Position numbers and translations under genes: made by a program. The notes under the pieces are model-generated. The model searched no databases and was not told the origin of the DNA. It was given only the letters and a program-made list of their open reading frames with translations. DNA of 64,000 nucleotides from Entophlyctis helioformis (taxonomy: Eukaryota; Chytridiomycota; Chytridiomycetes; Chytridiales; Chytriomycetaceae). Positions 22,446 through 25,815 of the stretch are shown here, in pieces (within the stretch, counting starts at the first letter, position 1; the number at the start of each line of letters is the position of its first letter). The stretch is taken from assembly GCA_025526915.1 (NCBI GenBank), contig JAHLKH010000002.1:267931-331930 (forward strand). The letters are read 5' to 3'.

Positions 22446-24426
22446 ATGGGCATCCAAGGTCGGACATTGATCGAGCAGCTGCGGATACGCTGCAGATGCA
22501 CTGCAGATGCACTGCAGGACGGCGTCCGCTGAGCTGACACGGACGTGCAGGTCTCTCCAAGGTCATCTACGACAATGCACCGGCCGCCACCAAGGAGAAC
22601 GACATCAAGAACTACTTTGGCCGCAAGGTCGCCATTGATGCGTCCATGTCCATCTACCAGTTCCTGATTGCCGTGCGCTCCAACGACGGCCAGATGCTGA
22701 CCAACGAGGCGGGCGAGACGACCAGGTACGGCGACTGCTGCCTCTTCTCTCTCTCTCTCCTTCATCTGGTCTTGTCTTGTCTTGTCTAGCCTTGTCTTGT
22801 CTGGTCTTGCTCAGACTGTGTGAACAATGCACTCATCTCTGGCCCGCGTTCGGACATGGCATGCTGGATCTGGCAACGCAACACAATGCAATCCACTCAC
22901 GACATGCAGCCACTTGATGGGGCTGTTCTACCGCACCATCCGCATGCTGGAGAACGGCATCAAGCCTGCGTACGTCTTTGATGGCAAGCCGCCGTCCCTC
23001 AAGTCGGGCGAGCTGCAGAAGCGTGGCGAGAAACGCGCCGAAGCCCAGAAGGAAGCCGATGCCGCCGAAGAAGCAGGCGAGTCTCCCCTTTCTTCTGTCC
23101 GCCTGCCGGATCCTGGCGGTTCTGTGGATGACTTGGGATGCACATGCTGACTGGATCGACCGGTGGGCGATGCAGGCGATACGGAAAACTTTGATCGGTT
23201 CAGTCGCCGCACGGTCAAGGTCACCAAAGAGCACAACGAAGAGTGCCGCAAGCTGCTCACGCTGATGGGCATTCCATTCGTCATTGCGCCGTGCGAGGCA
23301 GAGGCGCAGTGCGCAGCTCTTGCCAAGGCTGGCAAGGCAAGCTTGCCTCCCACGTCGCGAGACCCGTTGTGTAGCGGCAGGCTGACGCGTGTGCACTGTG
23401 GCTGCCAAAGGTGTACGCGGCAGGCTCAGAGGACATGGACACACTCACGTTTGGCGCGCCAGTGCTTCTGCGGCACCTGACGTTCAGCGAGGCCAAAAAG
23501 GCACCCATTGCCGAATTCCACATTGACAAGGTTCTGGCTGGTCTCGGCATGACCCAAGACGAGGTATGCCAATCCGACACGGCTGCATTGACCTATTCAC
23601 ACACAATGCCAAATGCTGACGCAAGGCTGCCAGTTTATCGATCTGTGCATTCTGCTTGGATGCGACTACTGTGACTCGATCCGAGGCATTGGGCCGCTGC
23701 GTGCCGTGCAGCTCATGAAGGAGCACCGGTCGCTTGAGAATGTGCTCAAGGCCATTGACAAGAAAAAGTACACTGTGCCAGAAGACTGGCCGTACCAAGA
23801 GGCGCGCAAGTTATTCCAGAAGCCGGACGTGACAGATCCCGAGACGCTTGATGTGAGCGGAGCTGGGATGGAGGGATGGATTGCGATAGATGGATTGCGA
23901 TGGACAATGGCAGCAAGGCTTACATGATGCCCTGCGATGCAGCTTGTGTGGAACGAGCCAGACGAGGAGGGCATTGTCGAGTACATGGTCAAGGAAAAGG
24001 GCTTCAAGTGAGTGGCGATGGCGAATGCATGCACTGAAAGTGATTCTTGGCCGCTTACGGGACAGCACGATGGCGTGGACCACGACAGCGAGGAGCGTAT
24101 CCGCAAGGGCGTGCAGAAGATGCAAAAGCTCCGCGGTGTCGGCACGCAGGGCCGCCTGGACTCGTTCTTCAAGCCCGTGGCCAAGGATCCGTCGGCCGCA
24201 CCAGCGACGACGCCCAAGCGCAAGGTAAGGCCGGGCTGGTGGCTGTGGCCGATGGCGGTTGCTTGTGGACTGACAGGACGATGGCTTGATGACTGGCTTG
24301 ATGGCTTGGTGGATGGACGGATGGATGGACGCGCAGGCCGATTCGGCAGCGGCGGGAAGTGCAGGAGCCCGGGGCAAGGCGGCTAAGAAGGGATCAGGAT
24401 CCAGCCGCGGCAAGCCTCGGCGATAG
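22446..24426 (+). CDS. FEN1: flap endonuclease 1 (FEN1/Rad27)
   Basis: Cuts 5' flaps in Okazaki fragment maturation and base-excision repair. Nine exons are proposed: 22446-22458, 22551-22725, 22910-23076, 23176-23336, 23411-23563, 23634-23852, 23943-24007, 24089-24224 and 24337-24426 (392 aa). It starts [15 protein letters not shown]. Active-site acidic residues are seen in [38 protein letters not shown] and [16 protein letters not shown]-binding box QGRLDSFFK precedes a basic Lys/Arg-rich tail. Introns 3 (23077-23175, GCGAGT) and 4 (23337-23410, GCAAGC) use GC donors. The 3' exons lie under a long open frame on the other strand that comes from the Fanzor fragment. Confidence 0.93.
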
Positions 24427-24429
24427 AGC

Positions 24430-25083
24430 GCGTTGGCAGACAGCGACAAGTGCGCGTGGCATCGAATTAAAGACCCTTTATCGCAAGAAAGGTGACCAGT
24501 TTGTGCCCCGATTCTAAATGTTGGTGGTGGTAGGCATGGCAGCATGATCTGATCGCATGAGGTGACATGCGACTTGAAAGGAAGCGGATCGGGTGCTGGA
24601 GGCTGCTGGTCGACAGGCTGATCGACTGGCGTGTGCGTCAAGTAGAGTGGCCGTTGTCCAAAAAGCAGATGCTCCAGTGCGACCATCCCGATGTTGGTGG
24701 CTCCAAGCACATCGCGGTGGTAGACGGTCGTGCATGGTATGCACTCGTAGCGTCGCAGGTTGGTGCGGTTCTCGTATGGGATCCGCTGCTTGCACTGCGG
24801 GCACATCTGGCTGGTCAGGTTCTCGTTGCAGCGGTAGATCTGTGTGTGTGTGTGCATGATCGTGTGGTCAGTTGGTGCACAGATGGATGGATGGATGGAT
24901 GGATGGACAGTGTGGCATCAGACGCACATAGGCATATCCAGACGACCGCAGATGCCTGATGAGAAACTTCTCAAACACAGCTTGCCGGCCACCTTGGCCT
25001 GTAAAGTCGATGCCAAATGCCCAGACAACATGGAACGCGACGACAAGGTTCAGTAAAGCCAAGCCACTCGCGCGCGTTGGCAT
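24430..25083 (-). CDS. Fanzor nuclease C-terminal fragment (TnpB-like)
   Basis: Fanzor proteins are eukaryotic TnpB relatives, RNA-guided DNA nucleases carried by transposons. Proposed pieces are 25083-24928, starting MPTRASG, and 24839 to about 24430, joined by an 88-nt intron (24927-24840). Visible parts: the region before the zinc finger (GIDFTGQGGRQAVFEKF), the TS-x-x-C zinc knuckle (ENLTSQMCPQCKQR ... YECIPC) and the final RuvC aspartate (VYHRDVLGATNIGMV), then LLFGQRPLYL. The first RuvC Asp, RuvC-II Glu and the whole N-terminal domain are absent; the eL32 gene lies immediately upstream. No stop follows in frame until 23811, under FEN1, so the true C-terminus is unclear. This is a 5'-truncated remnant and cannot cut on its own if this is all there is. 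Confidence 0.65.
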
Positions 25084-25209: not shown

Positions 25210-25815
25210 TTACTCGTTCTCAGCCGTCTGCAGTCTGGCGGCAGCGTTGGTGACCTTGACGTCGAGCTGGCGAGCGCGCTGGACAATAGCAATGCGCTTC
25301 TTGGAGCTGACGTTGTGGGCAATCTCAGCAGCGTAGACGCGGTTGTGCATGAGGAGGAGCTCAAGGTCCTGGACATTGCTGACAAGGAACTTCTTGAAGC
25401 CGTTGGGGAGGACGTGGCGGGTGTTGGCGTTGGAGCCGTAACCGATCTTGGGCATGGCGATCTGGCCCTTGAAACGGCGACGAACGCGGTTATCAATACC
25501 CTTGGGCTTTCTCCACGAAGCCTGTTGACGTTGACCATGCACGTGTGTCCATCATCAACGTCGGTTGCCGTCCACCCAGATCAGCACACGATCAGCACGG
25601 CGGATTGTTGCAGTCGTCCAGAATGTGCGTCCCAGTCATATGGTTGGACACCAAAGCATTCGCGACGGTCAGCAGTCCGATCCACAGAACCACAGCCCGC
25701 AAACAGAATGCTGCAGCCAACGTACATCGAGCTTCTTGTATCTGTCCGACTGGTGGCGGGCGAACTTCTTCGTGCGCTTCTTGACGATATCAACCTTCTT
25801 GATCGGGACGGGCAT
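25210..25815 (-). CDS. RPL32: 60S ribosomal protein eL32
   Basis: Large-subunit ribosomal protein. Exons, in transcript order, are 25815-25726 and 25521-25210 (133 aa, the usual length). The N-terminus [18 protein letters not shown] is followed by [19 protein letters not shown] across the single 204-nt intron, then [35 protein letters not shown] and [12 protein letters not shown], ending in TAENE. Conserved along its whole length. About 600 bp upstream is a CCAAT box followed by CACGTG (26416-26446), possible promoter elements. Confidence 0.96.

Follow-up and report, generated by a model that had tools for sequence, protein, structure and literature searches.

How did a piece of a Fanzor-like nuclease gene come to lie between two housekeeping genes of the chytrid Entophlyctis helioformis, and from what kind of element was it derived? 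The piece occupies positions 25029-24441, on the minus strand, of a 64-kb stretch of contig JAHLKH010000002.1 (the window), where the last two coding exons of the gene, with some of its 3′ non-coding tail, sit between the convergent genes RPL32 and FEN1. In our analysis the window very probably contains a dead copy that is truncated at both ends and derives from an E. helioformis DNA transposon encoding a Fanzor and, upstream on the same strand, a protein of the FEN1/XPG superfamily. The preliminary description of this locus, made from the letters of the window, did not foresee the size of the family or that its elements also carry an FEN/XPG-like gene.

Fanzor identity of the fragment

The fragment had been described as a Fanzor/TnpB-like remnant, and the profile evidence for this identity consists of PF07282, which matches the window at 24514-24917 on the minus strand (E value 1.8e-9; 38.0 bits against a cut-off of 26.3) over a C4 zinc ribbon and a RuvC-III motif. 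The match is far from chance. The three other Pfam matches at the same stretch, C1_1 (17.2 bits against 26.5), DZR (13.2 against 27.3) and Zn_ribbon_IS1595 (10.9 against 25.4), all fall below their cut-offs. The window copy retains 119 codons, and its RuvC and REC/WED core is incomplete. The published Fanzor signature, D-X(125,275)-[TS][TS]XX-C4-X(5,50)-RD (PMC3627910), is present in a composite of fuller relatives, with spacings of 188 and 5; this composite joins gene model P0003 to the last exons of a long copy on contig C108 (copy A), and PF07282 matches it with an E value of 1.5e-11. On these sequence grounds the fragment is assigned to the Fanzor/TnpB family, and its setting in a DNA transposon favours Fanzor1 over Fanzor2.

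A large family of long elements

The E. helioformis assembly that we searched comprises 29.57 Mb in 482 contigs, and the copy counts given here are lower bounds, drawn from candidate lists of which a part was scored. PF07282 is found at no fewer than 150 loci (150 of 205 candidates were scored, all above the cut-off), the RuvC-I exon of one copy has at least 150 matches (150 of 207 candidates scored), and the FEN-like exon at least 151 (159 candidates, 150 scored). A DNA search with the fragment, in which 40 of 267 candidates were scored, returned the window itself and 39 other copies at 88-96% identity, the nearest of those listed being 96% identical. In the protein database the sole matches among those listed were E. 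helioformis predicted proteins (BC831DRAFT).

Fuller relatives, which the preliminary description had proposed to look for together with terminal inverted repeats, do exist in the genome. Seven copies measure 9,480-10,071 bp from end to end, with several of the 5′ ends deduced from the part of the query that matched, and five of the seven begin with GAGGGG, while that on C103 begins with a variant and that on C112 lacks the motif. Copy A spans GAGGGGCAGGCAATT to ...GTTGCCCACCCCTC and has AGCTGTAAC on either side, and the copy on C264 is likewise flanked by GAGTTCAAC; both are clean 9-bp target-site duplications. Seven flank bases match at C95, and at C169 repeats of 12 and 14 bases match imperfectly. 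The inverted-end motif GAGGGGYRGGCAATW occurs at 97 sites in the genome as against none for a reversed control, with 59 of these sites fitting Fanzor 3′ ends and eight fitting 5′ ends before an FEN-like exon. The mobile-element origin supposed in the preliminary description is shown by the 39 other copies, the inverted ends and the two clean duplications. Thirty of the 97 sites have no Fanzor or FEN-like exon nearby among the matches listed; they may belong to elements with internal deletions or without a partner, or their partners could lie outside those matches.

The elements are not uniform. When loci L018, L026, L028, L037, L038 and L046-L048 were compared with the GAGGGG class, two classes of 3′ terminus were seen, one ending at ATCGGGCC and the other running about 60 bp further to the GAGGGG inverted end. 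Copies of the second element class stop at TTGGTAATTGT.TGAATATCGGGCC itself, with unique sequence beyond it, and for this class neither a 5′ end nor a target-site duplication could be fixed. The 5′ parts are mosaic between element classes. A 300-bp block (L057:3627-3928; 1543-1841 of the C108 element) is 96% identical between subfamilies that are about 75% identical elsewhere, an indication that elements have recombined or undergone gene conversion. When two copies were compared for codon-position periodicity, the signals were mixed and weak. We also considered homing, in which the constant right flank of one class would mark insertion into another transposon, with empty sites as the targets. 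This idea was rejected: no empty site was seen, and all 54 hits to the pattern, which required a non-A base nine positions upstream and tolerated one mismatch, stand behind the Fanzor right end or one of its variants.

A FEN/XPG-like gene upstream of the Fanzor

A second multi-exon gene lies upstream of the Fanzor gene on the same strand. Its linkage was measured on 144 FEN-like rows, after six that were second pieces of a copy had been dropped, on 150 rows each for RuvC-I and PF07282, and on the 97 inverted ends. A Fanzor exon lies 1.5-9 kb downstream on the same strand for 84 of the 144 FEN-like hits, as against none of the 144 for either control arrangement, with the Fanzor exon on the opposite strand or upstream on the same strand. 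FEN-like and RuvC-I exons lie a median of 5,581 bp apart (74 pairs) and, among the matches listed, an FEN-like exon lies upstream of 74 of the 150 RuvC-I rows and 59 of the 150 PF07282 rows. One repetitive element carries both genes, in the order FEN-like then Fanzor.

The assignment of the upstream gene to the FEN/XPG nucleases is well supported but not proven. The acidic set D, D, E-x-D, D-x-D, D is present together with Lys and Arg, the full set being found in P0006; the roles of these active-site residues are taken from FEN1. The EAD motif occurs in 25 of 27 FEN-like loci, and D, HVDG, K, R and EAD are invariant in eight aligned copies, which were selected for carrying HVDG and EAD. Copies of the protein diverge down to about 28% identity, and the ratio of nonsynonymous to synonymous substitution (dN/dS) in the FEN-like exon is below 1. 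A low-confidence structure model, from which we score the protein as having an FEN/XPG fold, ranks EXO1, FEN1 and their relatives first in both Foldseek and VIA. The partner resembles cellular FEN1, EXO1 and XPG in its top structural matches and in its acidic motifs with Lys and Arg, which follow one another as expected; unlike them it is transposon-encoded, shares 10-19% identity with its Foldseek matches at E≤0.001, and reaches the cut-off of no Pfam model. Two earlier steps were abandoned: QEREAC, at first taken for the second motif, is located in an intron and was replaced by EAD one exon on, and a model of P0001 folded alone (predicted local distance difference test score, pLDDT, of 40.8) was not used. 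A viral contig (L094:4383-4550; IMGVR_UViG_3300017420_000013) shows a weak match to the FEN-like protein, 27% over 44 residues; no match to the Fanzor tail was found in the viral contigs.

Several observations weigh against our interpretation. Sixty of the 144 FEN-like hits have no Fanzor partner among the matches listed. The structure model is weak, with a mean pLDDT of 56.2 and a predicted template modelling score of 0.41, and its TM-scores to the top structural matches are 0.29-0.45. No Pfam FEN/XPG model exceeds its cut-off on the partner protein, XPG_I_2 coming closest with 21.5 bits against 24.2 (19.7 on a spliced piece), while whole-genome searches with PF12813 and PF00867 match other genes only, PF00867 finding the XPG_I exons of the host FEN1 at C2:291198-291499 (window 23268-23569). 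PDB sequence searches with the FEN-like protein yielded no FEN, the FEN-like exon and the FEN1 of the window showed no match when compared by profile, and the dN/dS set was restricted to stop-free windows. A clean 9-bp duplication is absent from seven of the nine copies inspected; at C103, C16, C112, C116 and C18 inspection of the flanks revealed no duplication, the ends of C18 possibly coming from different copies. No transposase was recognised in the ten element open reading frames scanned. The 3′ region of the element, where the preliminary description had suggested looking for a conserved, guide-RNA-like end, is alignable among 29 loci. Folding gives no support for a guide-RNA structure there, with a consensus fold much weaker than the single-sequence folds, and no Rfam match rises above the gathering score. 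A hairpin near the right end was dropped after inspection by eye of 27 distinct sequences, in which all four base combinations occur at the varying pair.

The duplications and the missing transposase bear on two other accounts of these elements. Fanzor elements of Rhizopus, Phycomyces and Mucor are described as MuDR-like, with 9-bp duplications and no MuDR transposase (PMC3627910), and the E. helioformis elements might be non-autonomous MuDR-like transposons of the same kind, to which the two duplicated copies and the lack of a recognised transposase would conform. We think this unlikely. The Mutator-like element (MULE) transposase profile PF10551 has no match in the assembly, a result that is not proof of absence because the same type of six-frame search also missed divergent FEN-like exons, and an FEN/XPG gene is not mentioned for the mucoromycete elements in the sections of PMC3627910 that treat them.

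The main rival concerns the origin of the partner, which may be an Academ gene. The elements would then belong to the Academ superfamily, having captured a Fanzor; the FEN-like gene would be the ordinary Academ nuclease, as in AcademX, and only the Fanzor would be new. The AcademX nuclease is of the XPG type; the elements here also have an XPG-like gene, and two of their copies are flanked by 9-bp duplications. In the published account AcademH makes duplications of 9-10 bp and AcademX of 3-4 bp, a difference that its author links to the encoded helicase and nuclease (PMC10045372). With a nuclease in one lineage and the longer duplications in the other, Academ comes close to our elements, yet the combination of a nuclease with a 9-bp duplication matches neither lineage described, and none of the ten reading frames yielded a recognisable transposase. 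An Academ origin seems to us unlikely, if slightly less so than a MuDR-like one.

The window copy

The two exons and the motifs of the preliminary description were all located on the minus strand. Exon a (24928-25029) reads VVWAFGIDFTGQGG...SSGYAY and ends before a GT donor; its 5′ edge, 25029, is a break point that falls within the coding exon. It is followed by an 88-bp GT...AG intron (24840-24927) common to other copies and by exon b (24584-24839), which carries the zinc ribbon TSQMC-PQC...CIPC (TSQMC at 24815-24801), the RuvC-III motif HRDVLGATNI (RDVLGAT at 24716-24696), RPLYL (24653-24639) and the start of a Pro-rich tail. The spliced exons read VVWAFGIDFTGQGG...SSGYAY-IYRCNENLTSQMCPQCKQRIPYENRTNLRRYECIPCTTVYHRDVLGATNIGMVALEHLLFGQRPLYL. 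Within the intron, a CATC microsatellite and a CA repeat differ in length among copies, and the Fanzor C-terminus at L042:4650-4970 and in other copies carries tandem Pro/Arg-rich repeats in copy-variable number, most of which the window copy has lost.

The fragment is longer than its protein motifs. In an alignment with six genome copies the homology continues through 24441-24583 (minus strand), where the coding tail ends in rearranged form and some of the 3′ non-coding sequence of the element follows; it reaches about 24441, only 14 bp from the FEN1 stop codon (24424-24426), and the DNA search matched three copies to this part (query 578-698) at 87-88%. From this edge to TTGGTAATTGT.TGAATATCGGGCC, the right end that the copies share, about 110 bp are lacking. 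On the other side, the fragment had been thought to be cut off by the 3′ end of RPL32; this is not the case, since 180 bp lie between the RPL32 stop codon (25212-25210) and the break at 25029. Of the neighbours outside the element, the last exon of RPL32 (25210-25551, minus strand) is identified by PF01655 (5.4e-45), and FEN1 (22446-24426, plus strand) was read from its exons. The fragment lacks about 9 kb of the 5′ part of the element as well as its right end, and no further piece of the element turned up when the window was compared with three long copies and two proteins. The window copy is most likely a dead remnant, truncated at both ends.

Both exons are still open, both splice sites are canonical, and of the 783 bp that separate the RPL32 and FEN1 stop codons the remnant takes up 589, as might be expected if it were kept alive as part of the 3′ untranslated regions or terminators of these genes. 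We consider such retention very improbable, because the young age of the fragment, indicated by its 96% identity to the nearest copy, is enough to account for the open frame.

Proposed mechanism

The dead-remnant reading implies that the element inserted into the short space between RPL32 and FEN1, outside both coding sequences, and that later deletions may have removed its 5′ part and right end. Full elements are probably mobilised by a transposase that escaped our searches. For TnpB and Fanzor, a proposed mechanism is guided cutting of empty sites, with repair copying the element in. Here a guide RNA made from the conserved 3′ end might direct the Fanzor to cut sites without the element, so that repair copies it in, and the FEN-like enzyme might trim the branched intermediates or 5′ flaps that this repair produces. 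Such joint action of the two nucleases is an inference. It is possible, if on balance doubtful, that the Fanzor and the FEN/XPG-type nuclease have travelled and diverged together and act as one machine, a two-nuclease eukaryotic OMEGA (obligate mobile element-guided activity) element of which the window fragment would be a fossil; the Fanzor would make a guided break or R-loop, the FEN-like enzyme would process the flaps, and the element would be copied in.

Relation to known systems and significance

That Fanzor genes occur in DNA transposons, reach high copy numbers and leave broken copies was already known (PMC3627910; PMC10432273). The E. helioformis elements share with Fanzor1 of fungal transposons (Bao and Jurka 2013, PMC3627910) the signature, carriage by DNA transposons and the 9-bp duplications described there for three mucoromycete families; with MCi-2 of Mucor a constant 3′ Fanzor part and variable 5′ ends; and with Cyanidioschyzon about 150 copies in one genome (both PMC3627910). 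In contrast to the Fanzor1 elements of that paper, they are about 10 kb long, have GAGGGG ends and carry an upstream FEN/XPG-like gene, a partner not reported in its account of those elements. Spu-1/SpuFz1 of Spizellomyces punctatus is also found in a chytrid, as full, partial and ghost copies with the Fanzor between transposon ends, but it is about 2.1 kb long with a single open reading frame, putative TA duplications and 33-bp terminal inverted repeats (PMC10432273, PMC3627910). Academ transposons resemble our elements in being DNA transposons with an accessory nuclease, in AcademX, or with duplications of 9-10 bp, in AcademH; unlike them as described, our elements contain a Fanzor, combine a nuclease-like gene with a 9-bp duplication and lack a recognised Academ transposase (PMC10045372). 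Our literature search found no paper naming both Fanzor and XPG.

What Fanzors do for their transposons is an open question, on which well over 100 copies in several subfamilies, with a recurrent partner in the same order and orientation, give a direct handle, and the partner suggests which step the Fanzor needs help with. The fragment in the window shows that such elements also insert and decay between housekeeping genes.
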